Shown: positions 51,060-63,918 of the stretch, piece by piece
Layout of the letters: each line of letters starts with the position of its first letter
Position numbering within the stretch: position 1 is the stretch's first letter
Assembly (NCBI RefSeq): GCF_002119765.1
Contig: NZ_CP021112.1
Span: forward strand, 5,822,501 to 5,886,500
DNA from: Pseudorhodoplanes sinuspersici
Lineage (GTDB): Bacteria; Pseudomonadota; Alphaproteobacteria; Rhizobiales; Xanthobacteraceae
DNA: 64,000 bases
Direction of reading: 5' to 3'
Made by a program: the position numbers and the translations under genes
The notes under the pieces: model-generated
What the model was told of the DNA's origin: nothing
What the model saw: only the letters and a program-made list of their open reading frames with translations
The model's database searches: none

Positions 51060-51419
51060 TCAATGCGAAATCATCCAAGGCCGGCTGGTCGGGAAGCTTT
51101 TTGAACCGTCTTTGCCGCGCGCGGTGAAACGCGAGAATGTCTTGCTACCGCCGGAACAGCAACTGCAACCCTTGCCGTGCCGGTCTGCCTGTTCGGCTTT
51201 GAATTGAGCAGACGTTCGCGGTGCATGCGCGTTCTTTTCGTTGGTCGCATGGGCGACGCGCCGCTCCGAGGACAGGCCGGAAAAATGCGGCGCCGTGAGA
51301 ATGACCCTCTGCGCCAGGGCGCCGCAATCGGGGCAAGCCTGCGGGAGATCGTATTCGGCCATCGGCCGCATGTCCGTGAAAGGACCGCAACTGGTGCAGA
51401 GATAATCGTAGATGGGCAT
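51060..51419 (-). CDS. fmdB: FmdB-family zinc-ribbon protein
   Basis: 119 residues. The N-terminal zinc ribbon MPIYDYLCTSCG...CPDCG has C8, C11, C29 and C32. The C-terminus adds a CSCCSGG motif. FmdB was proposed to regulate amidase genes in Methylophilus, though its role is uncertain. It is the last gene of the urea/amide operon, with a REP-like element between it and fmdA. Confidence 0.85.
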   Translation of the reverse strand: MPIYDYLCTSCGPFTDMRPMAEYDLPQACPDCGALAQRVILTAPHFSGLSSERRVAHATNEKNAHAPRTSAQFKAEQADRHGKGCSCCSGGSKTFSRFTARGKDGSKSFPTSRPWMISH

Positions 51420-51500: not shown

Positions 51501-52730
51501 CTACTTGTCCGGCGACATCGGAATATCGACACCGCCCTTGATGTGCTTGATCGGTCCGGCGGCGCTCGGCATGACATCGAAATCGAAAATGTCGGTCGGC
51601 AACCACAAGGTGGCGCAGGCATTCGGAATATCGACGACGCCCGAGATATGACCCTGCACCGGCGCGGTACCAAGGATGGCGTAGGCCTGCGCCTTCGAGT
51701 AGCCGAACTTGGTCAGATATTCGATCGCGTTCAGGCAGGCCTGCCGATAGGCGATATGCACGTCGAGATAATGTTGCTTGCCCCATTCATCGACCGAGAT
51801 GCCTTCGAAGATCAGATAATCGTTGTAGGTCGGCGTGATCGGCGACGGCTTGAAGATCGGATTCTTGATGCCGTATTTCGAAACACCATCCTTGATCAGC
51901 TCGACCTTCAGATGCAGCCAGCCGGCCATCTCGATCGCACCGCAGAAGGTGATTTCGCCGTCGCCCTGGCTGAAATGCAGATCGCCCATCGAGAGCCCGG
52001 CACCTTTGACATAGACTGGGAAATAGATCTTCGAGCCGCGCGACAGATCCTTGATGTCGCAGTTGCCGCCATGCTCGCGCGGCGGCACGGTCCGCGCGCC
52101 CTCGGCTGCAACCTTGGCTTTCGCGTCGCCCCTGGCCATACCGGCATGCGCAGTCGACGGGAATGGTGGATTGGCGAGCGGCGGCACGCGCGTCGGATTG
52201 GTGGCGATGAAATCCACCTCGCGTTTGTTCCAAGTGTCGAGCAGCTTCTGATCCGGCAGACAGCCGATCAGACCGGGATGGATCAGACCGGCAAACTTGA
52301 CGCCGGGCACATGACGCGAATGCGTATAGAGGCCGGAAATATCCCAGATCGATTTCTGGGCCATCGGGAAATGATCGGTGAGAAAACCACCGCCATTGTT
52401 CTTGGAGAAAAAGCCGTTGAAGCCCCAGAGGCTCTCGGGCTTCGCCCCCACATCAAGCAGATCGACTACCAGAAGATCGCCGGGCTCGGCGCCTTCCACC
52501 CCGATCGGGCCCGAGAGGAAATGCACAATCGAAAGATCGATGTCGCGCACGTCGTCCGCGGAATCGTTGTTCTTGATGAATCCGCCGGTCCAGTCATACG
52601 TCTCGATAATGAAGTCATCGCCCGGCTTGACCCACGCGACCATCGGGATGTCTGGATGCCAACGGTTATGGATCATCTCGTTCTTGTAGGGAGATTCCGA
52701 CAGATCGACTTTGACGACGGTTTTGGGCAT
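51501..52730 (-). CDS. fmdA: Formamidase/acetamidase
   Basis: 409 residues from ATG at 52730, with GAAGGAG upstream. It is close to Methylophilus FmdA in length and shows the family landmarks: HNRWHPDIP, EGAEPGDLLVVD, NGGNCDIKDLSRGS-like turn, and the long VEGAR..PPREHGGN stretch. It hydrolyses formamide to formate and ammonia. It sits 96 bases after urtE in the same direction. In Methylophilus the amidase is also linked to an amide ABC transporter. Confidence 0.93.
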   Translation of the reverse strand: MPKTVVKVDLSESPYKNEMIHNRWHPDIPMVAWVKPGDDFIIETYDWTGGFIKNNDSADDVRDIDLSIVHFLSGPIGVEGAEPGDLLVVDLLDVGAKPESLWGFNGFFSKNNGGGFLTDHFPMAQKSIWDISGLYTHSRHVPGVKFAGLIHPGLIGCLPDQKLLDTWNKREVDFIATNPTRVPPLANPPFPSTAHAGMARGDAKAKVAAEGARTVPPREHGGNCDIKDLSRGSKIYFPVYVKGAGLSMGDLHFSQGDGEITFCGAIEMAGWLHLKVELIKDGVSKYGIKNPIFKPSPITPTYNDYLIFEGISVDEWGKQHYLDVHIAYRQACLNAIEYLTKFGYSKAQAYAILGTAPVQGHISGVVDIPNACATLWLPTDIFDFDVMPSAAGPIKHIKGGVDIPMSPDK

Positions 52731-52825
52731 GTTTCCTGCTCCTTCACTTGAACTTTTAAAGAGGCACACAGAATGAACCGCCGGCTGGCGCGCGCCCCTG
52801 GCGCCGGCACAGCAGAGAACGGGGT

Positions 52826-53515
52826 TTAAACCGCGAGAAAGCGCGCAATGGCGGCCTCATCGACGCGGTCGCGGGTATCGGAATGGACGATGCTGCCGTT
52901 TTCCATCACCAGAATGCGGTCCGCCGCATCCAGCACGAAACTCAGCACCTGTTCGCAGACGACGATGCAGAGATTCTTGAGATCGCGGATCTCCTTGAGA
53001 ACCTTGGCGATGTCCTTGATGATCGAAGGCTGTATGCCTTCGGTCGGCTCGTCGAGGAGAAGAATTTTCGGATCGCTCGCCAGCGCCCGCGCGATTGCGA
53101 GCTGCTGCTGCTGCCCGCCGGACAGATTGCCGCCCCGGCGCTTTTCAAATTCACGAAGGATCGGAAACAGCGAATAGATTTCGGGCGGCACGTCGCTCTT
53201 GCCGGTGACCACAAGCCCGGTCTCGATATTCTCCTTCACCGTCATGGTGCCGAAGATCTGCCGGCCCTGCGGCACATAGGCCAATCCCTTGGCGACCCGC
53301 TGGTGGCTTTGCAGCGCCGACACATCGCTGCCGTCAACCATGATCTGCCCCGACCGCGACGGCATCACGCCGATCAGGGATTTCATCAATGTCGATTTGC
53401 CCATGCCGTTCCGGCCGACCACGGCGACAATTTCTCCGGGCTTCACCGCCATATTGATGTCGTGCAGCACCGTGCTTTGACCATAGGCGGCGGAAAGATT
53501 GCGGACTTCAAACAT
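52826..53515 (-). CDS. urtE: Urea/short-chain amide ABC transporter ATPase, UrtE-like
   Basis: 229 residues from ATG at 53515, with GAGGAAACAG upstream. Walker A GRNGMGKS (34-41), signature LSGGQ (131-135) and Walker B ILLLDEP (151-157) are intact, as is EGIQPSII after Walker B, a mark of UrtE. It is the second ATPase of the branched-chain-type transporter. It overlaps the end of urtD only by spacing of 8 bases. Confidence 0.92.
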   Translation of the reverse strand: MFEVRNLSAAYGQSTVLHDINMAVKPGEIVAVVGRNGMGKSTLMKSLIGVMPSRSGQIMVDGSDVSALQSHQRVAKGLAYVPQGRQIFGTMTVKENIETGLVVTGKSDVPPEIYSLFPILREFEKRRGGNLSGGQQQQLAIARALASDPKILLLDEPTEGIQPSIIKDIAKVLKEIRDLKNLCIVVCEQVLSFVLDAADRILVMENGSIVHSDTRDRVDEAAIARFLAV

Positions 53516-53523
53516 CTGTTTCC

Positions 53524-54270
53524 TCAATGTCCGAGATAGACTTCCTTGACTTTCGGATTGTCCTGGATCGCCTCCATATTGCCTTCCGCCAGCACCTGTC
53601 CCTGATGCAGCACGGTGACATGATGGGCGATGCTCGCCACGAACTTCATGTCGTGTTCGATCACGATCACGGACCGGTTCTTGATGATTTCCTTGAGCAA
53701 CTCTGCAGTTTTAACGCGCTCGGACACGCTCATGCCGGCGACCGGCTCATCAAGCATGAGCAATTCGGGATCCTGGATCAACAGCATGCCGATCTCGAGC
53801 CATTGCTTTTGGCCATGGCTCAGCGTTTCGGCGAGCTGGTCGAGATGCTTTTCCAGAAAAATCATGCGCGACGTCTCGCGCACGCGCTCGACAATCTCGT
53901 CAGTTCGCTTCCAGAATAGGGCGCCATGCACATCGCGCCCGCGCGGGAATGAAATCTCCAGATTCTCGAAGACGGTCAGATCTTCATAGATCGACGGTGT
54001 CTGGAATTTGCGACCGATACCGCGCCTGACGATCTGCTGCTCCTTGAGCCCAGTGATTTCCTGATCCTTGAACTTGATCGAGCCTTCACTCACTTTGGTG
54101 CGGCCGCAGATCAGGTCGAGCACCGTGGTCTTGCCGGCGCCATTCGGGCCGATAATCACACGCAGCTCACCCTTATCGACATAGAGGCTGAGATTATTGA
54201 CCGCCTTGAAGCCGTCGAACGATACAGTGACGCCTTCGAGCGCGAGTAGAAAATCGGTGTTGCTGGACAT
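53524..54270 (-). CDS. urtD: Urea/short-chain amide ABC transporter ATPase, UrtD-like
   Basis: 248 residues. Walker A GPNGAGKT (41-48), signature LSHGQ (150-154), Walker B LLMLDEP (170-176). The KFQTPSIYEDLTVFENLEI stretch is characteristic of UrtD. The alternate signature LSHGQ is normal for the LivG/UrtD group. It is 9 bases from urtC. Confidence 0.93.
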   Translation of the reverse strand: MSSNTDFLLALEGVTVSFDGFKAVNNLSLYVDKGELRVIIGPNGAGKTTVLDLICGRTKVSEGSIKFKDQEITGLKEQQIVRRGIGRKFQTPSIYEDLTVFENLEISFPRGRDVHGALFWKRTDEIVERVRETSRMIFLEKHLDQLAETLSHGQKQWLEIGMLLIQDPELLMLDEPVAGMSVSERVKTAELLKEIIKNRSVIVIEHDMKFVASIAHHVTVLHQGQVLAEGNMEAIQDNPKVKEVYLGH

Positions 54271-54279
54271 GCTGCTTTC

Positions 54280-55425
54280 CTACTCTGCCGGCGCCGGTTG
54301 CGCGTTCGCCTGCTCGCTCGCCGCGCGAGAGCGCGACATCAGCTTGGAGATGAACGGAATCATCTGATCGGTCACCAGGCCGGCAAGGCCGCGCGGGAAA
54401 GCCAGAACCACAGCGATGAACAATCCGCCCATAGCGAACAGCCAAAGTTCCGGAAAACTTTCGGAGAACAGCGTCTTGCCCCAGTTCACGAGCAATGTGC
54501 CGACCACCGCGCCAACCAGCGAATGACGACCGCCGACCGCGCAAAAGATCACCATCTCGATCGATGGCACGATCCCGACAAAGGACGGCGACATGAACCC
54601 GACCTGCAGCGTGAACATGGCGCCGCCTATTGCGGCGATCGCGGACGCCAGGCAAAAAATAAAAATCTTGAAATTGGCGACGTCGTATCCCGAGAAGCGG
54701 ACACGATCCTCTTTGTCGCGCACGGCGACCAGAATGCGTCCGAGTTTGCTGGTCAGAACAAAGCGAGCCAGAAACATTGTGCCGAGCAAGCAAAGACAGC
54801 AGACGAAGTAGAGGATGTATTTAGCACCGTCGGTGCGGATGTCCCAGCCGAGCAGCGTTCGCAGGTCGGTGATACCGTTGATGCCGCCGGTATAGCCCTG
54901 CTGGCCGATGATCAGGATGGTCATCACGGCGGCGAGCGCCTGCGTGATGATGGCGAAATAGACGCCGCCCACGCGCCGCTTGAACATCGCGGCCGACAGT
55001 ACGAAGGCGAAGAAAGCCGGGACCGCGATGACCGCGATCAGCGTGAAGGGGAACGATTTGAACGGCACCCAGAAGAACGGCAGCTCCGTGATCTGATTCC
55101 AGTCCATGAAGTCCGGAATGCCCGGCGTGGACTGGATCTTGGTGTTGGCGGGCGACGATGCTTCGAGCTTGAGGAACATCGCCATGCAATATCCGCCGAG
55201 ACCGAAGAACACACCCTGCCCGAGACTGAGGATGCCAGTATGCCCCCAGCACAGGACGAGACCGACCGCAACGAAGGCATAAGTGAGATACTTGCCGACC
55301 AGGTTGAGCCGAAAGATATCGAGGGCGAGCGGCAATACCACCAAGATCAACAGAGCGATCAGAGCGAAGCCGATGAGTTCGAGATTGCGTTTGTTTGTTA
55401 TTGCGGCCGGCATGACGACGGTCAC
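54280..55425 (-). CDS. urtC: Urea/short-chain amide ABC transporter permease, UrtC-like
   Basis: 381 residues with about ten hydrophobic segments. The CWGHTGILSLGQGVFFGLGGY motif is the LivM/UrtC hallmark. It includes an inserted loop (about 105-130). The C-terminus is charged and cytoplasmic. It overlaps urtB by 4 bases, so translation is coupled. Confidence 0.93.
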   Translation of the reverse strand: MTVVMPAAITNKRNLELIGFALIALLILVVLPLALDIFRLNLVGKYLTYAFVAVGLVLCWGHTGILSLGQGVFFGLGGYCMAMFLKLEASSPANTKIQSTPGIPDFMDWNQITELPFFWVPFKSFPFTLIAVIAVPAFFAFVLSAAMFKRRVGGVYFAIITQALAAVMTILIIGQQGYTGGINGITDLRTLLGWDIRTDGAKYILYFVCCLCLLGTMFLARFVLTSKLGRILVAVRDKEDRVRFSGYDVANFKIFIFCLASAIAAIGGAMFTLQVGFMSPSFVGIVPSIEMVIFCAVGGRHSLVGAVVGTLLVNWGKTLFSESFPELWLFAMGGLFIAVVLAFPRGLAGLVTDQMIPFISKLMSRSRAASEQANAQPAPAE

Positions 55426-56348
55426 CTTCTGACCTTGAGGACGAAGAGACCCTGCGGGCGCAGCATCAGGAGGCCGATCACGATCAGCAGGGTGAGAACC
55501 TTTGCCATCGATCCCGACAGGAAAAATTCGAGGGTCGATTGCGATTGGGAAATGGTGAGCGCCGACGCGATCGTGCCGAGCAGGCTTTGTGCGCCTCCGA
55601 ACACAACGACCAGGAAGGTATCGACGATGTAAAGTTGGCCCGCGGTCGGACCCGTCGAACCAATCATGGTGAAGGCGGAACCCGCGACGCCGGCAATGCC
55701 GCAGCCAAGACCGAAGGTGAGCCGGTCGACGCGGCGAGTATCGATGCCGACGGCGCCGCTCATGGTGCGGTTGGTCACCACTGCGCGCACCTGCAAGCCC
55801 CAGCGCGAGCGGAACAGAAGCAGCGCGACGATGCCGGTAATAACAAGCGTCAGCCCCATCACGAACAGGCCGTTAATCTGCACATCGATCGTGTCGGTCA
55901 CCGGCAGCGAACCCATCATCCAGTTCGGCAGCTGCACGCCCACTTCACGCGCGCCGAAAATAGAACGGAAGGCCTGTTGCATGATCAAGCTCAAGCCCCA
56001 GGTTGCCAGCAGCGTATCGAGCGGACGAGCATAGAGACGGCGTATCAACAACCACTCGACAGCAAGCCCAAGCGCGCCGGAGACGACGAAGGCGATGGCC
56101 ATCGCAACAAAGAAGTAGGCGCTGAAAAGAAGCGGAACGTATTGTTCGAAAACATTCGAGGTCAGATAGGTCATGTAGGCGCCGAGGATCATGAACTCCC
56201 CGTGCGCCATGTTGATCACGCCCATCTGTCCGAAGATGATGGCCAGTCCGAGCGCCATCAGCAGAAAGACCGAGAACAGGATCAGGCCGGAAAAGGCCTG
56301 CATCGCGAAGATCGAGCCAAGCTCTTCGAGCGTAAAGCCGCCAAACAT
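55422..56348 (-). CDS. urtB: Urea/short-chain amide ABC transporter permease, UrtB-like
   Basis: 308 residues from ATG at 56348, preceded by GAGG. Eight or so membrane helices, with GQMGVINMAHGEFMILGAYM, the LivH/UrtB signature. The usual extra N-terminal soluble domain of some UrtB proteins is absent. The gap to urtA is 101 bases. Confidence 0.93.
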   Translation of the reverse strand: MFGGFTLEELGSIFAMQAFSGLILFSVFLLMALGLAIIFGQMGVINMAHGEFMILGAYMTYLTSNVFEQYVPLLFSAYFFVAMAIAFVVSGALGLAVEWLLIRRLYARPLDTLLATWGLSLIMQQAFRSIFGAREVGVQLPNWMMGSLPVTDTIDVQINGLFVMGLTLVITGIVALLLFRSRWGLQVRAVVTNRTMSGAVGIDTRRVDRLTFGLGCGIAGVAGSAFTMIGSTGPTAGQLYIVDTFLVVVFGGAQSLLGTIASALTISQSQSTLEFFLSGSMAKVLTLLIVIGLLMLRPQGLFVLKVRR

Positions 56349-56449
56349 CGCGCAACCTCGTGCGTGCACCGCCGGCAGCGGTGGCAATTGCAGAAACAAT
56401 AAAGAAGACAGGCGTCCCGGCAGACCTCGCGCCGGGACGTTCGCGACGC

Positions 56450-57742
56450 CTATTGGTAGCCCTTCGGGAATGGATCGGGCTCGACCAAGTCCGCGGTCTC
56501 AAAAATCAGATCATATTGGCCATTGGTTTTCGCACGGCCGACGCGCGTCTTCGACCAGAGATGATGATTCTCATGGACCTTGACGTAGCCCTCCGGCGCC
56601 TCCTTGAATTCGACACCGGGCGAGGCGGCGGCAATCTTGTCGATATCGAACGAGCCTGCTTTTTCGACGGTCAATTTCCACAACCATGGTCCGAGATAGG
56701 CGGCCTGGGTGACGTCGCCGATCACCGTCTTCTCGCCCCACATCTTCTTGAAGGCGCCAACGAATTGCTTGTTGTTCGGATTGTCGAGTGACTGGAAGTA
56801 TTTCATGCAGGCATAGGCGCCGGCGATGTTCTCACCGCCGATGCCGTCGATCTCATCTTCGGTGACCGAAATGGTGAGCAGCGTCTGCTTGTTGAGATCG
56901 ACGCCGGCTGCCTTGAGCTGCTTGTAGAAAGCCACGTTCGAGCCGCCGACGATGATCGCGTAGATCACATCGGGCTTGGTCAGCTTGATCTTGTTGATGA
57001 CGGAGTTGAACTGGGTGTGGCCGAGGGGGAAGTATTCTTCGCCGACCACCTTGGTCTTGAGGAAGTTTTCGATATGCTTGCGGGCGATCTTGTTCGACGT
57101 GCGCGGCCAGATGTAGTCGGAGCCGAGCAGATAGAAGGTCTTGGCGCCCTTCTCCTTCGCCACCCAGTCGAGGCCGGCGATAATCTGCTGGGTTGCTTCC
57201 TGACCGGTATAGATGACGTTCTTGGACTGCTCGAGGCCTTCATAGAAGGTCGGGTAATAAAGCATGCCGTTATATTGCTCGAACACGGGCAGCACAGCCT
57301 TACGGGAGGCCGAGGTCCAGCACCCCATCACCGACGCGACCTTGTCGTTGACGAGAAGCTTCTTGGCCTTTTCCGCGAAGGTCGGCCAGTCGCTCGCACC
57401 GTCTTCCTGGATAAACTTGATCTTGCGGCCCAGCACGCCACCCGACGCATTGATCTGCTCAATGGCGAGTTTTTCGGCCTGGACCGAGCCGGTTTCCGAG
57501 ATCGCCATTGTGCCGGTCACAGAATGCAGAATTCCGACTGTGACCTCCGTATCGGTGACCGCCAGGCCCGTGGTGTTCACCTTTGCTGTCGGAAATTGCT
57601 GAGCCAGTGCGGCCGACGGCAGCAGCGCGGCCGCCGATACCGCCGCCGTGCCCATGAGCAATTGCCGCCGCGACAGAGCTTCCAAATCGAAAGGCTGTTT
57701 TCCCCAAGACTGCTTTTCCCAAGATCGTTTATCCCAAGACAT
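56450..57742 (-). CDS. urtA: Urea/short-chain amide ABC transporter substrate-binding protein, UrtA-like, Tat-exported
   Basis: 430 residues from ATG at 57742. The Tat signal SRRQLLM lies near 24-30, followed by a hydrophobic stretch ending ALAQQ. Before it is an unusual run of short repeats (SWDKRSWEKQSWGKQ). The mature part starts DTEVTVGILHSVTGTMAISETG and contains GCWTSASRKAVLPVFEQYNGMLYYP, the UrtA core. Urea, formamide or acetamide are possible ligands; fmdA downstream supports amides. It heads the operon, divergent from the sensor gene. Confidence 0.93.
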   Translation of the reverse strand: MSWDKRSWEKQSWGKQPFDLEALSRRQLLMGTAAVSAAALLPSAALAQQFPTAKVNTTGLAVTDTEVTVGILHSVTGTMAISETGSVQAEKLAIEQINASGGVLGRKIKFIQEDGASDWPTFAEKAKKLLVNDKVASVMGCWTSASRKAVLPVFEQYNGMLYYPTFYEGLEQSKNVIYTGQEATQQIIAGLDWVAKEKGAKTFYLLGSDYIWPRTSNKIARKHIENFLKTKVVGEEYFPLGHTQFNSVINKIKLTKPDVIYAIIVGGSNVAFYKQLKAAGVDLNKQTLLTISVTEDEIDGIGGENIAGAYACMKYFQSLDNPNNKQFVGAFKKMWGEKTVIGDVTQAAYLGPWLWKLTVEKAGSFDIDKIAAASPGVEFKEAPEGYVKVHENHHLWSKTRVGRAKTNGQYDLIFETADLVEPDPFPKGYQ

Positions 57743-58100
57743 GCGACGCCCCCATCCACGTTGTTCGATCCCAAGAGCGCGTGAGCCACTCTTTCGGCGG
57801 TCATGCTGGGCCTGAATATTGCAATGCAGCATACGTCAATTGACGTATTCGCCTACGCCGAATGACGTAACAAACTGAATGTGGACCAAGGCTCTAGGTC
57901 GCAGCGGGACGAGCGCACCAAACAATGGGGACATGCATTTTTTTGCGGCGCACGCTGCTCGGATTTTTGTCAATCCAGTGCGCCGACAACCGGCTAGATT
58001 TTGACGTCGCGGGACAATCGAGCAGCGCAGCGACCGGCAAGAGCGGAAACGGCAAGCCGAGCTTGCGGGCATTTGCGCGCAAACGAACAAGCGATCGGCC
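57743..58100. other. Divergent promoter region between urtA and the transporter-kinase gene
   Basis: 358 bases without a gene. It contains the 18-bp palindrome at 57831-57848 and a related half-site pair TACG/CGTA at about 57854-57869. No -24/-12 promoter was seen. The palindrome lies about 90 bases before urtA and about 250 bases before the sensor gene. Confidence 0.6.
57831..57848. promoter_or_regulatory. Perfect 18-bp palindrome, candidate operator of the LuxR-type response regulator
   Basis: ATACGTCAATTGACGTAT is its own reverse complement. It is followed after 5 bases by a weaker TACG-N8-CGTA arrangement. LuxR/NarL-type regulators bind such dyads, and the divergent sensor-regulator genes make the nearby regulator the best candidate. 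Binding is inference. Confidence 0.6.
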
Positions 58101-61100
58101 ATGACAGCGCAACAAAGAATTGTCCGTGTCCGGCGCAACTACAACAAGTGGGTCGCCAATCAGACGCTCGAGGACTACGCGCTGCGTTTCACCGCCAAAA
58201 GCGCGCGGAAATGGTCGAACTTTCGCGTCGCCAATACAGCAATCGGCGCGATTTCATTTTTGGCGCTGGAGGCCATCGGCGGCGCCATTACCGTCAATTA
58301 CGGCTTTACCAATGCCACATTGGCCATCCTGGTGGTCGGCGCGATCATCTTCCTCACCGGCTTGCCGATCACCTATTACGCCTCAACTTATGGGGTCGAT
58401 ATCGATCTGCTGACGCGCGGTGCCGGTTTTGGCTATTTCGGCTCGACGATCACATCCCTTATCTATGCGTCTTTCACGTTCATCTTCTTTGCGCTGGAAG
58501 CGGCCATTATGTCGCTCGCGCTGGAGATGTGTTTCGGAATACCGCTTTTTATCGGCTATGTGATCAGCTCGCTCGCGGTCATTCCGCTTGTCACCCACGG
58601 CATTACGCTTATCAGCCGGTTTCAGCTCTGGACGCAACCGTTCTGGATCGCGCTGCATCTGCTGCCATTCGCATTCATTGCCGTTGCCGATGTTGCATCC
58701 TTCGATGCATGGACGCGATATGGCGGCGTTTCCGAAACGGACGGCCGGACGTTCAACATTATCCTGTTCGGCGCGGCAACGACGGTTGTTTTTTCGCTGA
58801 TCGCGCAAATTGGCGAACAGGTCGACTTTCTTCGGTTTCTGCCACCGCGCGACAAAAGCCGGCGATTGGGTTGGTGGGGCGCCTGTCTGTCCGCCGGGCC
58901 AGGCTGGATCATTCCCGGCATGCTGAAAATGCTGGCAGGATCTTTCCTGGCTTTCCTGGCGGTCCAGCACCTTGTGCCGCCGGACAAGGCCGCCGAACCG
59001 ACGCAGATGTATCTGGTCGCGTTCCAATATGTCTTCTCGTCGCCAGCACTCGCCCTCGCTTTTACGGGCGCATTCGTGATCATTTCCCAGATCAAGATCA
59101 ACGTCACCAATGCCTATGCAGGATCGATCGCCTGGTCCAATTTCTTCTCTCGCCTGACCCACAGCCATCCCGGCCGTGTCGTCTGGCTCGTTTTCAATGT
59201 CACGATCGCGCTGATGCTGATGGAGCTCGGCATCTTCAAGGCGCTGGAGCACATTCTCGGTCTCTATTCGATTCTCGCCGTGGCATGGGTCGGCGCGCTG
59301 GTGGCCGATCTTGTAATCAACAAGCCACTGGGACTGAGCCCTCCCGGAATCGAATTCAAACGCGCTCATCTCTACGACATCAATCCGGTCGGTGTCGGTT
59401 CGATGGTGCTCGCGACCCTTGCTGGGATAGCCGCCTTTTCCGGGCTGTTTGGCACGACGCTACAAGCGCTGCCGGCATTTCTCACGCTGGCCGTCGCTTT
59501 TGTGGCAGCACCCGTCATCGCCTTTGTCACCAAGGGAAAATATTACATCGCGCGCAATCCCTGGCAGAACTGGGGACAAAGCCCGACCATCCCCTGCTCG
59601 ATTTGCGAACATCACTTCGAGCCGGAGGATATGGCGCAATGCCCGGCGTATTCGGGCGCCATCTGCTCGCTATGCTGTTCGCTTGAGACCCGCTGCCGCG
59701 ACTGCTGCAAGCCGGACGCGCGGATTTCCAGGCAAATCGTTGGCGTTGTCGGAAAAGCCTTACCCAGTTGGATAACGCGGCCACTGGGTTCCGACGTGGC
59801 GCATTTCCTCGGCGTTTTGTCATTGTTTGCCGGCGTGATCGCGACCGTTCTTCTGTTCGTCTATTTTCAGGTTTCCTTCGATTCCATCGTCAACAAGAGC
59901 GTCCTGAGATCGACGCTGTGGACGATTTTCTTCATCCTCACGATCATCGGCGGCATCGCCGCATGGCTGTTTGTTCTGGCCCATGAAAGTCGCAGGGTGG
60001 CGGAAGAAGAATCCCGCCGCCAGACAGACCTTCTGATGCGGGAAATCGAAGCGCATAAACGCACCGACGCCAAACTGCAAAAGGCGAAGGAAATTGCCGA
60101 AGCCGCCAGCAAAGCCAAAAGCCGATATGTGGTCGGCTTGAGCCACGAGTTACGCACGCCGCTGAATGCTATTCTCGGCTACGCACAGATCCTCGAGCGC
60201 GATCCGGACATGCCGACACGGCGGCTCGACGGCATCAGGGTCGTGCGTCGCAGCGCCGAGCATCTTTCAGGACTGATCGATGGATTGCTGGACATTTCCA
60301 AGATCGAGGCAGGACGCTTTCAACTCAATCGCAACGAGGTGCGCCTGCCCGAATTCATCGATCAACTGGTCGACATGTTCCGCCTGCAGGCGATTGCTAA
60401 GGGAATAGAATTCCATTTCGCAGCGTCCGGGCGGTTGCCGGTCGCGGTTTTTACTGACGAAAACCGGTTACGCCAGATTCTGATCAATCTGCTGTCGAAC
60501 GCGATCAAGTTCACGGAGGCCGGTCAGGTCACGTTTCGCGCTAGCTACCGTTCACAGGTTGCCGAGTTCGAGATTGAAGATACGGGTATCGGCATCGGCG
60601 CCAAGGATATCGACCGCATCTTCCAGCCGTTCGCACGCACTGAGACGGTGCGCGCGCGAGGGATTATCGGGACGGGCCTTGGACTGACAATTACAAAGCT
60701 CCTGACCGAGACCATGGGCGGACAAATTACGGTGCAGAGCGAGATCAACAGGGGCACCACGTTTCGCGTCAAATTATTCCTGTCCGAAGTCGCCCGTCCC
60801 CGCACGGCGCCGACAAAGGAAAACGCCGTCCGCGGTTACATCGGCGCAAGGCAGACCGTTCTTGTGGTGGATGACAACAGCACACAACGCGACCTCGTTC
60901 GCGAATTGCTGGCTCCGCTGGATTTCATCGTGATCACGGCCGCAAGTGGCAAGGATTGCATGACCCTTGCCAACAAACACAAGCCAAACCTCATTCTTCT
61001 CGACATCTTTATGCCGGAGATGGACGGCTGGGAGGTCGCCAGACGCCTCCGTCAATCGGCCGGAGAACGAGCTGCGATCATCATGCTGTCCGCCAATGCG

Positions 61101-61481
61101 ATCGATAAAGCGCATGACGTTGGCCCCAACAGATTGCATGACGATTATCTGATGAAACCTTTCGACCTGCGGCAATTGCTCGAGAAAATTCACACGCTAC
61201 TCGATATCGAATGGACTTATGATTCAGAGAGTGGCCCGCCACGACCCCGAATCCCCCCAGTACAGCCCCTGACCCCTGCCCTGGCAATTCGGGACATCGA
61301 CGACCTGATGCATCTTGCACAGATCGGTCATATCCGTGGCATCCAGGAGAAACTTACCGAGATCGAAAGCAACTCGCCGGCTCATCAGGCTTTTGTCGTC
61401 CAAATGAGGGCGATTGCGGACAGCTTTGACCCGAAACGATTGGCGACAATGCTGGAGGCGCTTCGCAGCACGCATGTCTAA
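58101..61481 (+). CDS. NCS1-type transporter fused to a Cys-rich module, histidine kinase and receiver
   Basis: 1126 residues. Residues 1-480 are a complete NCS1/CodB-type permease: YNKWVANQTLEDYALRF at the start, then about 12 helices, with FLALEAIGGAITVNYGF and ISQIKINVTNAYAGSIAWSN. Residues 499-536 hold nine cysteines (C499, C502, C514, C522, C525, C526, C532, C535, C536). Two more helices (about 566-590, 605-627) and a coiled linker follow. The HisKA has H682 (SHELRTPLNA), the ATPase domain has NLLSNAIKF and EDTGIGIG, and the receiver has D968 and K1019. A helical tail ends the protein. By analogy with CbrA (an SLC5-kinase fusion), it may sense a nitrogen compound. Ligand unknown. Confidence 0.88.
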   Translation: MTAQQRIVRVRRNYNKWVANQTLEDYALRFTAKSARKWSNFRVANTAIGAISFLALEAIGGAITVNYGFTNATLAILVVGAIIFLTGLPITYYASTYGVDIDLLTRGAGFGYFGSTITSLIYASFTFIFFALEAAIMSLALEMCFGIPLFIGYVISSLAVIPLVTHGITLISRFQLWTQPFWIALHLLPFAFIAVADVASFDAWTRYGGVSETDGRTFNIILFGAATTVVFSLIAQIGEQVDFLRFLPPRDKSRRLGWWGACLSAGPGWIIPGMLKMLAGSFLAFLAVQHLVPPDKAAEPTQMYLVAFQYVFSSPALALAFTGAFVIISQIKINVTNAYAGSIAWSNFFSRLTHSHPGRVVWLVFNVTIALMLMELGIFKALEHILGLYSILAVAWVGALVADLVINKPLGLSPPGIEFKRAHLYDINPVGVGSMVLATLAGIAAFSGLFGTTLQALPAFLTLAVAFVAAPVIAFVTKGKYYIARNPWQNWGQSPTIPCSICEHHFEPEDMAQCPAYSGAICSLCCSLETRCRDCCKPDARISRQIVGVVGKALPSWITRPLGSDVAHFLGVLSLFAGVIATVLLFVYFQVSFDSIVNKSVLRSTLWTIFFILTIIGGIAAWLFVLAHESRRVAEEESRRQTDLLMREIEAHKRTDAKLQKAKEIAEAASKAKSRYVVGLSHELRTPLNAILGYAQILERDPDMPTRRLDGIRVVRRSAEHLSGLIDGLLDISKIEAGRFQLNRNEVRLPEFIDQLVDMFRLQAIAKGIEFHFAASGRLPVAVFTDENRLRQILINLLSNAIKFTEAGQVTFRASYRSQVAEFEIEDTGIGIGAKDIDRIFQPFARTETVRARGIIGTGLGLTITKLLTETMGGQITVQSEINRGTTFRVKLFLSEVARPRTAPTKENAVRGYIGARQTVLVVDDNSTQRDLVRELLAPLDFIVITAASGKDCMTLANKHKPNLILLDIFMPEMDGWEVARRLRQSAGERAAIIMLSANAIDKAHDVGPNRLHDDYLMKPFDLRQLLEKIHTLLDIEWTYDSESGPPRPRIPPVQPLTPALAIRDIDDLMHLAQIGHIRGIQEKLTEIESNSPAHQAFVVQMRAIADSFDPKRLATMLEALRSTHV

Positions 61482-62403
61482 ACGGGAGCCGCGCGATATC
61501 GTGCTTGTTGTCGACGATTCGCCAGACACATTGAGGATGCTGACGGACGCGCTCGAACAGGCCGAGATGACCGTTCTGATTGCGCGCGACGGCGATCAGG
61601 CGCTTTCCATGATTGAACGGGTCACGCCTGACATTGTTCTGATGGATGCCATTATGCCAGGCCGAGATGGCTTCGAAACATGCCGCGAACTCAAGCGCAA
61701 CAAAACGCTCACACATGTCCCTGTCATTTTCATGACTGGCCTCAGCGATACGGATGATATCGTGAAAGGGCTCGAAGCCGGTGGGGTTGACTATGTGACC
61801 AAGCCCATCATTCCGGACGAGTTGTTGGCCCGCATCCGCGTTCATCTGGCCAATGCCAGAATGACACATAGTGCGAGAACGGCTCTCGATGCTTTCGGTC
61901 GCTTCCTTCTCGCAATCAATCGCACCGGTCATGTGCTCTGGTGCACGCCGCAAGCGGTGAAGCTCCTGAACGCGGCCTTCAGAGGTTTTGATTCGGAGAC
62001 ATTCATATTTCCGCAGGATATTCAGGAATGGTTGCGACAACGCACGAGCGGCGGAGCGCCGTCATCGACCGATACGATCAAACTTCAGCACGATCAAACG
62101 GCCGGCTCTCTCGAGTTGTCCTACATTGGCCAGATCGGCCCCGATGAGATCCTGTTCAGGCTGGTGGAAGGAAACGGTACCAGCGATCAGACAGTGCTTC
62201 GTAACAAGCTGATGCTGACGCATCGCGAAAGCGAGGTCCTGCTGTGGATTGCCAGAGGCAAATCCAACCGTGACATCGCCGACATTCTGACGCTCAGCCC
62301 GCGGACGGTGAACAAGCACCTTGAACAAATCTATGCCAAGCTCGGGGTCGAGAACCGGACATCGGCAGCGGCATTGGCTGTGCGCGCGCTGGGGCTGCGA
62401 TAG
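61474..62403 (+). CDS. Response regulator, REC plus LuxR-type DNA-binding domain
   Basis: 309 residues from ATG at 61474, which overlaps the kinase gene by 8 bases. The receiver (about 8-125) has phospho-acceptor D58 (VLMDAIMPG) and K near 111 (VTKPI). A middle part (about 135-235) resembles a PAS-like domain (TGHVLWCTPQAV). The LuxR helix-turn-helix is at about 245-308 (THRESEVLLWIARGKSNRDIA to SPRTVNKHLEQIY). It is the obvious partner of the hybrid kinase. Its target is probably the urt-fmd operon and this pair. Confidence 0.92.
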   Translation: MSKREPRDIVLVVDDSPDTLRMLTDALEQAEMTVLIARDGDQALSMIERVTPDIVLMDAIMPGRDGFETCRELKRNKTLTHVPVIFMTGLSDTDDIVKGLEAGGVDYVTKPIIPDELLARIRVHLANARMTHSARTALDAFGRFLLAINRTGHVLWCTPQAVKLLNAAFRGFDSETFIFPQDIQEWLRQRTSGGAPSSTDTIKLQHDQTAGSLELSYIGQIGPDEILFRLVEGNGTSDQTVLRNKLMLTHRESEVLLWIARGKSNRDIADILTLSPRTVNKHLEQIYAKLGVENRTSAAALAVRALGLR

Positions 62404-62629: not shown

Positions 62630-63556
62630 TTACGCGACACCTGCCTCCGCGACAGCATTGCTCTGTGTGTTGGCCCATTTGGCACTCGCCGTGATCCCGC
62701 CCAGCGGGAAAATATGGACCTGCTCGATCATGCTGTTTGGATGCGCCTCGCGATACGCCGCAAGCTCGCCGAGCACATCGAATGGCTCATAGGGCGTCAT
62801 CAGCTTGGTGAGGTCCATGGCACGCTTCTGTAGCACCTTCAGCGAGGGTCCCACGCCGCAGGCGATCGCGAATTTGATCAGCGTCTGCAATTTGGTCGGG
62901 CCGGCTACGCCGACATGAATTGGCAGCGTGATTCCAAGCGCATGCAAGCGTTCCGACCAGCGGATGACCGGCTTTGCGTCAAAGAAGAATTGCGTCACGA
63001 TGGCCATGTCGGCATCGGTGCGTTCTGAAAAGGATTGCTTCCAGAGCAGCGCCTCATCCGCCTGACGCGACGAGCCATCAGGATCGATGTCGCGATTGCC
63101 TTCCGGATGCCCGGCCACATGCAGGCGGCGGAAACCGTATTTGTCGAAGAGCCCCGTCTCCAAGAGCTGCATCGCACTGTGCAAGTCTCCATGCGGCTCC
63201 CGCGGTCCGCCAGCGAGAAGCAGCGCCTCTTCTACACCGGCCTCGTCCCGATATTGCCGCACCCAGTCTTCCAGCGTGGCGGTGTCTTTGATGATCCTGG
63301 CGGGGACATGCGGCATGGCCGCATAACCTTCATCGCGCAGGCGCCGAGCCGTGGTCACCATGTCGGCGATCGGCGTGCCCTCGATATGGGCGATGTAGAC
63401 ACGCGTGCCGCGCGGCAGGAGATCGGCAAAGCGCTCCACCTTGGCGGCGGTCCGCGGCATGACCTCGATCGAATAACCGCTCAGGATTTTCCCGAGGCCG
63501 CTACCGCCGCCTCCGCTGGTATCGGCCTGCCGTCTCAAAATATCCGCGAACGCCAC
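62630..63556 (-). CDS. Methylenetetrahydrofolate reductase (MetF)-like protein
   Basis: 308 residues from GTG at 63556, preceded by GGAGGAG. It has the TIM-barrel pattern: SIEVMPRTAAKVERFADLLPRGTRVYIAHIEGTP, then ALLLAGGPREPHGDLHSAMQLLETG and VAGHPEGNRDIDPDG. These match the MTHFR/FAD-binding fold. It is a divergent MetF of the kind linked to C1 or demethylation metabolism; biosynthetic MetF is not excluded. Two GTATACAT-type sites lie upstream (63590 and 63731). It is convergent with the response regulator gene. Confidence 0.85.
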   Translation of the reverse strand: MAFADILRRQADTSGGGGSGLGKILSGYSIEVMPRTAAKVERFADLLPRGTRVYIAHIEGTPIADMVTTARRLRDEGYAAMPHVPARIIKDTATLEDWVRQYRDEAGVEEALLLAGGPREPHGDLHSAMQLLETGLFDKYGFRRLHVAGHPEGNRDIDPDGSSRQADEALLWKQSFSERTDADMAIVTQFFFDAKPVIRWSERLHALGITLPIHVGVAGPTKLQTLIKFAIACGVGPSLKVLQKRAMDLTKLMTPYEPFDVLGELAAYREAHPNSMIEQVHIFPLGGITASAKWANTQSNAVAEAGVA

Positions 63557-63918
63557 GGGGGCTCCTCCAAACCTCTTTCTGTATAGCACATGTATACATT
63601 TAACCGGACGCCAAAGAAAGCCTATTCCTGTATCGAGATCAAAAGTAGGATTTTTTTTGGGATTTTGCCCATCTCCGCCCCAAGATGAAGCATCCATGCG
63701 GATCAAATCTGGATACAGAATGGTGGTTTGGTATACATAAAGGCACTCGCCCACCTATCTGAAGCGCCGGCTGCCCATTGCCTGCGATCGGTTTTGCAGG
63801 ACGATTTCGTAGGTCGGGAGTGCGCAACATCGCGCCAACGTCGGCTTGGCGACGGCGCTCATTGGCGAGCTCAGGGCCGGAAGGTCGTGCCCGCCGACAC
63901 TTTAAAGCGCCATTTGGA
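63557..63918. other. Intergenic region upstream of the metF-like gene
   Basis: About 360 bases. It holds two GTATACAT-type sites and an A/T-rich run near 63648-63660. A 68-residue plus-strand frame (63728-63934) has no ribosome site or family features and is not called. Confidence 0.5.
63590..63599. promoter_or_regulatory. ATGTATACAT palindrome, candidate GntR-type operator
   Basis: A perfect 10-bp dyad 33 bases before the GTG of the metF-like gene. The octamer GTATACAT recurs at 63731-63738. GntR/FCD regulators prefer such TnGTATACnA-like dyads. No GntR gene lies in the window, so the link is inference. Confidence 0.4.

Follow-up and report, generated by a model that had tools for sequence, protein, structure and literature searches.

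We analysed a 64,000-nucleotide stretch of the Pseudorhodoplanes sinuspersici genome (contig NZ_CP021112.1, positions 5,822,501 to 5,886,500; the window), in which one long frame encodes a membrane protein fused to a hybrid histidine kinase (Table 1). A gene for a LuxR-type response regulator follows, and genes for a urt-type ATP-binding cassette (ABC) transporter, the formamidase FmdA and the zinc-ribbon protein FmdB are transcribed divergently from the kinase. A previous reading based on the letters of the DNA (the sequence-only reading) had described a 1126-residue frame that joins an NCS1-type permease, a nine-cysteine module, two further helices, a complete kinase core and a receiver, and had proposed that the permease part reports a nitrogen compound to the kinase. 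From the evidence below, we consider it likely that the fused protein is a receptor kinase of transporter origin: its NCS1-fold domain would sense a small acyclic amide or urea and activate the adjacent import-and-hydrolysis operon via the LuxR-type regulator.

The frame is open throughout its 1126 codons, and the phosphoacceptor H682, the receiver residue D968 and cysteines 499, 502, 514, 522, 525, 526, 532, 535 and 536 all lie where they had been placed. Pfam found HisKA, HATPase_c and Response_reg domains, confirming that kinase core and receiver are complete; a HisKA domain with its phospho-histidine, a HATPase_c domain and a receiver with its aspartate together define a hybrid histidine kinase. 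The two further helices were seen both as hydropathy peaks (residues 569-587 and 609-627) and in the AlphaFold model (helices 565-592 and 599-625). Residues 1-626 matched no Pfam and no NCBIfam family. The linked regulator combines a receiver with a GerE helix-turn-helix, as in two-component systems of the NarL/LuxR type.

Table 1. Features of the kinase locus, in window coordinates.
Feature	Position	Strand	Evidence
NCS1-type transporter/cysteine module/two transmembrane helices/hybrid histidine kinase, 1126 aa	58101..61481	+	Single open frame, Pfam, conserved fusion
NCS1-like membrane domain, residues ~21-478	58161..59534	+	hhalign against NCS1, Foldseek Mhp1/CodB, CodB PDB profile match
Cysteine module, residues ~497-540, C-2-C-11-C-7-C-2-CC-5-C-3-C	59589..59720	+	Exact spacing across fused rows
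Two extra transmembrane helices, residues ~565-627	59793..59981	+	Hydropathy, AlphaFold helices
HisKA dimerisation/phosphoacceptor domain, residues 673-738, H682	60117..60314	+	Pfam E 2.9e-15
HATPase_c kinase core, residues 785-894	60453..60782	+	Pfam E 1.1e-27
C-terminal receiver (Response_reg), residues 920-1030, D968	60858..61190	+	Pfam E 4.8e-22
LuxR-type response regulator (receiver and GerE helix-turn-helix)	61474..62403	+	Pfam; ATG 61474 overlaps kinase stop
urtA-type amide/urea binding protein, Tat-like signal	56450..57742	-	TIGR03407 E 3.8e-164
urtB-type permease	55422..56399	-	Homology to annotated urtB in relatives
urtC-type permease	54280..55425	-	Homology to annotated genes in relatives
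urtD-type ATPase	53524..54270	-	Homology to annotated genes in relatives
urtE-type ATPase	52826..53527	-	Homology to annotated genes in relatives
Formamidase FmdA	51501..52769	-	NF045496 E 2.8e-235; PF03069 E 3.7e-182
FmdB-type zinc-ribbon protein	51060..51419	-	Homologue of annotated FmdB in Methylovirgula
Predicted operator 1, TACGTCAATTGACGTA, 7-2-7 inverted repeat	57832..57847	.	Sole exact genome match; similar sites at relatives' urtA
Predicted operator 2, two mismatches, 22 bp from operator 1	57854..57869	.	

The membrane domain has an NCS1-type fold

Profile and fold comparisons identify residues ~21-478 as an NCS1-type transporter fold, despite the silence of the curated models. Profile-profile alignment (hhalign) with NCS1 covered 439 columns with a probability of 99.8 and an E value of 5.8e-27. 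The NCS1 alignment used here held 12 proteins, 11 recruited by PF02133 and one, the stand-alone protein L101, found by the query itself. When L101 and two poorly trimmed rows (L105 and L113) were left out, the match to the nine proteins kept covered 389 columns (probability 98.0, E 2.3e-13). A BLAST-level link also joins the membrane domain to L101. With the AlphaFold model, which was built with 25 sequences and has a mean predicted local distance difference test score (pLDDT) of 74.6, the five best PDB matches in Foldseek were all Mhp1 or CodB (TM-score by target 0.66-0.72), and other LeuT-fold families scored weaker. A wider profile that included stand-alone kin had CodB as its sole PDB match (E 2.6e-6).

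PF02133 matched neither the fused protein nor 24 relatives nor anything else in the whole genome; the curated NCS1 cut-off (PF02133/TIGR00800) was not reached, and close stand-alone kin fail Pfam too. Neither the sequence by itself nor a narrow profile built from 25 relatives matched a transporter in Pfam, NCBIfam or PDB, and a Pfam search of 25 family members for a hidden NCS1 match returned only five weak, unrelated families. An SLC5 origin of the membrane part was rejected: profile E values were only 0.2-0.5, against 1e-142 for the pairing of two control SLC5 halves. PF00474 (SLC5) had no match in the fused protein, its matches in this genome being elsewhere. The assignment of residues 1-480 to NCS1, not SLC5, was thus borne out by the profiles, with Foldseek in agreement, and a non-transporter family, which would have overturned it, is contradicted by the same NCS1 match.

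The fusion is conserved among relatives

We found the fusion in 100 of 101 initial loci, namely the window copy and 99 relatives with 96 distinct sequences in all; 80 of these loci were the best 80 of 582 found, and completeness was judged from BLAST coverage. Pattern tests for the H-box and receiver motifs proved overly strict, missing 17 and 60 of 150 rows, and carry no weight here. The sole non-fused locus is that of L101, a stand-alone NCS1 protein with 23% identity. A survey of the phylum Pseudomonadota gave matches in 58 of 398 genomes at E <= 0.001. Fifty-two of the 398, the window's included, held 57 matches with E below 1e-100, every one in a frame of 894-1365 codons. P. sinuspersici itself has one protein only of this receptor kind. 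The NCS1 domain also matched 535 plasmid records, 342 of them from Klebsiella and 308 predicted to be conjugative. That a sequencing error merged two separate proteins, the outcome that the sequence-only reading had named as fatal to it, has next to no chance of being right: the N-terminal part is fused at 99/99 relative loci, and the phylum-survey frames and the 150 fused rows analysed below refute it as well.

Some relatives deserve separate mention. In L147, the NCS1 domain belongs to the kinase of a urt-formamidase cluster that resembles 'UTS', called a urea transporter in the literature. The kinases encoded at L183, L184 and L149 are short (873-894 aa). Their genes neighbour those for formamidase and AmiS/UreI-type channels, and the response regulator encoded close by is of a different kind.

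The core site suggests a ring-free ligand

In the profile alignment with the reduced NCS1 set, E133 aligns with the Gln and F129 with the Trp of the 'W-x-x-x-Q' motif in NCS1 transmembrane helix 3 (TM3). By motif spacing they are equivalent to the two hydantoin-contacting residues of Mhp1, Gln121 and Trp117 respectively (PMC4195764). Two aromatics that sandwich the substrate, a Trp in TM3 and a Phe or Trp in TM6, are conserved throughout NCS1 according to the CodB paper (PMC9379551). This pair was not found in the fused proteins. The TM3 stacking-Trp position holds Phe in 138 and Leu in 15 of 153 fused rows (a set that includes two duplicate pairs), and the TM6 position is seemingly non-aromatic in a part of the alignment that is uncertain. 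TM6 carries the signature Q-I-G-E-Q-x-D-F-L-R-F. E133, Q236, E239, Q240, D242 and R245, and likewise W269, K276, Q330, K332, N334 and N337, are invariant in 153/153 fused rows and in 5/5 close stand-alone relatives. The loss of the stacking Trp together with an invariant E133 would fit a ligand without a ring, for which MetT, an NCS1 transporter of the ring-free metformin, is a precedent (PMC13390362).

The five stand-alone relatives are kinase-free proteins of about 535-560 aa that share the core site. That of Acinetobacter johnsonii directly precedes ureEFGJDABC, that of Moraxella osloensis is divergent from fmdA-fmdB, that of Acinetobacter baumannii is divergent from a kinase gene, and that of Methylovirgula is placed after a kinase and a regulator. 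A more distant stand-alone NCS1 protein (L194, 7949-9439; 30% identity, TIGR00800 E 2.5e-16) adjoins frames with sub-threshold nitrilase and UrtA-type matches.

These observations bear on whether the protein might sense a classical NCS1 ligand, that is a purine, pyrimidine, hydantoin or allantoin, and switch on amide and urea genes since such compounds end as urea or formamide. The NCS1 homology by profile and fold would suit such a sensor, and stand-alone relatives are annotated 'allantoin permease', with one sub-threshold cytosine-permease match (E 2.9e-4). The replaced stacking Trp and the position of stand-alone kin directly at urease or formamidase genes argue the other way, as do nine annotated regions in whose gene tables, although incomplete, no gene for the catabolism of purines, hydantoin or allantoin appears. 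We therefore regard a classical ligand as very unlikely. Among the nitrogen compounds that the sequence-only reading had listed, urea and short amides are favoured, and purine and hydantoin are disfavoured.

In contrast to the core site, transmembrane helix 1 (TM1) separates the two kinds of protein. At position 56, stand-alone relatives (5/5) carry Asp and fused receptors Leu, Cys or Met; position 57 is Phe or Gln in the former and Glu in the latter. The receptor pattern holds in 152/152 rows, one further row being gapped. In a comparison of the urea and amide clades for convergent ligand-specific residues, positions 398 and 169 stand out, an observation on which we base no claim.

A cysteine module lies between membrane domain and kinase

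Eight of the nine cysteines are exactly spaced in 150/150 fused rows (148 distinct; 60 clusters at 80% identity), C535 being the non-conserved ninth. The module matched no PDB entry and no Pfam family; judged by its cysteine content, it probably binds zinc. The cysteine-rich linker as a whole had no Pfam match, in a library that may hold no STAC model. When module and hairpin were searched in 190 genomes, all 12 strong matches fell within frames of at least 1130 codons, and there were 7 further weak matches (E 5e-4 to 0.01). A 56-residue query from this region matched 510 plasmid records, of which 60 spread rows were looked at; three rows that were opened proved to be urea/amide-linked kinases of Sphingobium and Thioclava and a Moraxella permease. 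Among the stand-alone relatives the module is full in Methylovirgula, half in A. baumannii and Moraxella, and degenerate in Arthrobacter.

Eight cysteines of this linker are invariant in all fused rows, which might indicate that the module itself reads a cytoplasmic signal, such as redox state, zinc or ammonium/nitrogen status, with the NCS1 part mainly an anchor or transporter. Against this stand the invariant membrane-site residues in fused and stand-alone proteins alike, showing that the site is under strong constraint, and the full or half module on relatives that have no kinase. We judge a cytoplasmic signal of this kind unlikely.

The receptor is linked to amide and urea genes

A frame matching the LuxR-type regulator over half its length was present at 143/150 fused loci (141/148 distinct). 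Of the 80 similarity-picked loci, 79 contained urtA, 79 the regulator and 71 fmdA; 8 of the 9 without fmdA were on stretches shorter than 15 kb. L016 has full flanks and no urt or fmd genes, yet an amiE match. We classed a locus as amide-type when it had fmdA, amiE, amiF, amiS or the urt type that accompanies these genes. All 150 fused rows then comprised 121 with amide-type genes, 23 with urease or canonical urt genes, 1 with both and 5 with neither. The 68 distinct rows outside the similarity-picked 80 divided into 39, 23, 1 and 5, respectively, and one row per 80% cluster (60 rows) into 45, 11, 1 and 3. This neighbour survey scored amide and urea reference genes only and is silent on purine genes; its counts are not independent, because the labels come from flanks of ~8-10 kb and the rows are related. 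The survey of relatives that the sequence-only reading had called for thus returned a kept fusion at 99/99 relative loci and a context of mostly amide or urea genes.

In four genomes with two copies, one copy is by fmdA-urt and the other by urease. A quick-mode tree with 94 membrane domains required 7 changes each for the amide and urea labels, compared with 25.6 and 21.4 for shuffled labels, and none of 500 shufflings came as low as 7. The starred branches force at least 5 (amide) and 6 (urea) changes. So few label changes suggest that partner genes and receptor evolve together and that the partner was switched several times. We tentatively suggest, as a possibility rather short of an even chance, that these proteins form an unrecognised NCS1 subfamily for ring-free amides (urea, formamide, acetamide) comprising permeases and kinase receptors with the same core site. 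The TM1 difference, Asp56 in the permeases and Glu57 in the receptors, would then be the mark, and perhaps the cause, of the conversion of transporter into receptor, with retuning between amide and urea at least five times.

At four loci (L149, L150, L183 and L184) the fetched stretch contains a formamidase but no urt gene, indicating that the sensor is not a mere passenger of the ABC transporter. They also bear on the idea of a trigger transporter, which would import amide or urea and derive its signal from the flux, or from contact with liganded UrtA, instead of acting as an equilibrium receptor. Transport-competent relatives probably exist, and CbrA is able to import histidine through its SLC5 domain (PMC13022988), which would favour such a device. 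UrtA, however, seems not to be essential at these loci, the Glu57 of fused proteins against the Asp56 of stand-alone ones hints at altered coupling, and activation of CrbS/CbrA is independent of transport (PMC5715377). A trigger transporter has, in our estimate, little probability.

Elsewhere in the P. sinuspersici genome, at 3.566-3.579 Mb (C1:3566000-3582000, L291), lies a second, canonical urtABCDE-ureDABC-EFG cluster without an NCS1-kinase. Since urea genes are thus grouped elsewhere and the receptor protein is single, an amide is the likely ligand in this genome. Here the kinase is probably dedicated to formamide or related amides, and the same receptor type serves urease in other lineages.

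A conserved protein of ~390 aa occurs near urtA and the kinase at urea-type loci (L151, 8262-9452; also L203, L217, L219 and L233). The L151 copy had no Pfam match and the protein looks beta-barrel-porin-like by eye; in L217, L219 and L233 the palindrome described below lies 84-107 bp upstream of it. In the window, the minus strand at 62630-63754 carries a 374-aa frame with a methylenetetrahydrofolate-reductase-like match just over the Pfam cut-off.

A palindrome lies in the gap between urtA and the kinase gene

NarL-type regulators recognise 7-2-7 inverted repeats. We found a palindrome of this form, TACGTCA-N2-TGACGTA, in the gap between urtA and the kinase gene, where it is a predicted operator. 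The exact sequence TACGTCANNTGACGTA is unique in the 5.97-Mb genome. At two mismatches the motif had 4 genome matches and a control pattern 13, which makes weak matches elsewhere in the genome meaningless. One such match near the organism's own urease genes falls inside urtC and was dropped as an operator; another is at 2.49 Mb. In the 16 kb that hold the canonical urt-urease cluster, including 586 bp before the urtA frame, no site exceeded 9/14 except the one internal to urtC. The listed urtA start (57832) overlaps the palindrome, and urtA probably starts 30 codons later, at 57742, which puts the site 90 bp upstream. The operator DNA was unremarkable as a hairpin (z -1.1), and a scan of the gap found no sigma-70 promoter and one terminator-like site, with 0.8 expected.

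Similar sites recur among the relatives. The best site of the locus lay within 450 bp upstream of the kinase at 82/145 distinct loci, with 3.9 expected, and at 34/58 when one locus per 80% cluster was counted, with 1.6 expected. The core TACG-N8-CGTA was found near urtA at 106/130 distinct loci (99/114 amide-type, 7/16 canonical) and, with one locus per cluster, at 31/50, where five control patterns gave 0 or 1. First tallies had been 82/144 for the best site upstream of the kinase and 108/133 for the urtA core. Where the kinase is apart from urtA (L146, L188, L199, L243, L244 and L246), an 11-13/14 site lies 67-102 bp before a canonical urtA. Sites were also found before amiF (L273) and, weaker and farther away, before urease genes (L272) and amiE (L150).

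A model for amide sensing by a transporter-derived receptor

Together, these observations suggest the following model, in which we infer the ligand, the zinc, the signal path, the direction of regulation and the binding of the regulator to the palindrome. The NCS1-fold domain would bind a small acyclic amide, most likely formamide or a short amide here and urea in other lineages. Binding could shift the bundle/hash arrangement of the NCS1 fold, and the shift might reach the kinase by way of the cytoplasmic, probably zinc-binding, cysteine module and the hairpin of two extra helices. The kinase would then autophosphorylate H682, and the phosphate would be handed to the co-encoded LuxR-type regulator either through D968 of the fused receiver or without this intermediate. 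This regulator is predicted to bind TACGTCA-N2-TGACGTA in the shared promoter region and to activate urtABCDE-fmdAB for amide import and hydrolysis. Gene context, the stand-alone relatives at urease and formamidase genes and the palindrome at urtA lend indirect support to the proposal that the permease part reports a nitrogen compound to the kinase.

Several points weigh against this model. The confidence of the AlphaFold model is modest (74.6) and is low within the cysteine module. The neighbours of the Arthrobacter stand-alone are bioA/bioB and dehydrogenase genes, and 26 kb of sequence at the A. baumannii pair of kinase and stand-alone gave no urease or amidase match. Five fused loci (L216, L220, L231, L232 and L247, the last on a short contig) have no linked amide or urea gene in the fetched stretch. 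We picked the neighbour references ourselves, so that other linked functions could be missed, and linkage cannot tell inducer sensing from sensing of nitrogen status or of product. Thirty-four of 145 distinct loci lack a site of at least 10/14 upstream of the kinase, and the core is absent at 24/130 distinct urtA loci, at 9/16 canonical (urea-type) ones and at 19/50 with one locus per cluster. The sets used for motif discovery and for testing overlapped.

If the model is true, this candidate membrane receptor for urea or formamide, present in 52/398 sampled genomes of the phylum and matched by 535 plasmid records, would be a second example, beside the SLC5-STAC kinases, of a kinase that has recruited a LeuT-fold transporter as its input. 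It would also supply a candidate regulator and operator for urt, fmd, ami and ure clusters. Because permeases and receptors share a core and have a clean TM1 difference, the question of how a transporter becomes a receptor is directly testable in such pairs.

Comparison with known systems

Transporter-kinase 'transceptors' are already known from the SLC5-STAC and Amt families. In line with the sequence-only reading, which knew of no characterised NCS1-kinase protein, we found none among the literature matches listed, which were partial texts of open-licence papers. Descriptions of the gene clusters themselves come close. Known urt/fmd amide-urea clusters have the same operon content (formamidase, FmdB and Urt-type ABC transporter). 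In the available parts of the texts, a hybrid kinase and LuxR regulator beside urt appear only as annotation (PMC13296017), an urt/fmd cluster is described without mention of kinase or regulator (PMC13209695), and a Klebsiella UrtABC/AmiF cluster is discussed without mention of a kinase (PMC13060141).

With regard to transporters, the window protein shares fold and profile homology with Mhp1, CodB and MetT. It differs from them in lacking the TM3 stacking Trp, in having an invariant Glu 133 where Mhp1 has Q121, in its own TM6 signature and kinase fusion, and in the silence of PF02133 on it.

The nearest functional parallels are sensor kinases. The Amt-histidine kinase Ks-Amt5 also uses the fold of a nitrogen-compound transporter as kinase input, but the fold is Amt and the ligand ammonium (PMC12918730). 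The SLC5-STAC kinases CbrA, CrbS and RpuS likewise fuse a LeuT-fold transporter domain to a cytoplasmic kinase. Two of them, CrbS and RpuS, are hybrid kinases that include a receiver and work with a LuxR-type regulator, and activation needs a palindrome for CrbR or a direct repeat for RpuR (PMC5715377, PMC9100948). Their transporter part, however, is an SLC5 domain of 13 helices, whereas that of the window protein is NCS1. They have a four-helix STAC linker (PMC13022988) in place of the eight-cysteine module and two helices, and their context is histidine, acetate or pyruvate instead of amide or urea. Because the transporter family differs, and apparently the linker too, the protein described here is not a member of the SLC5-STAC group.

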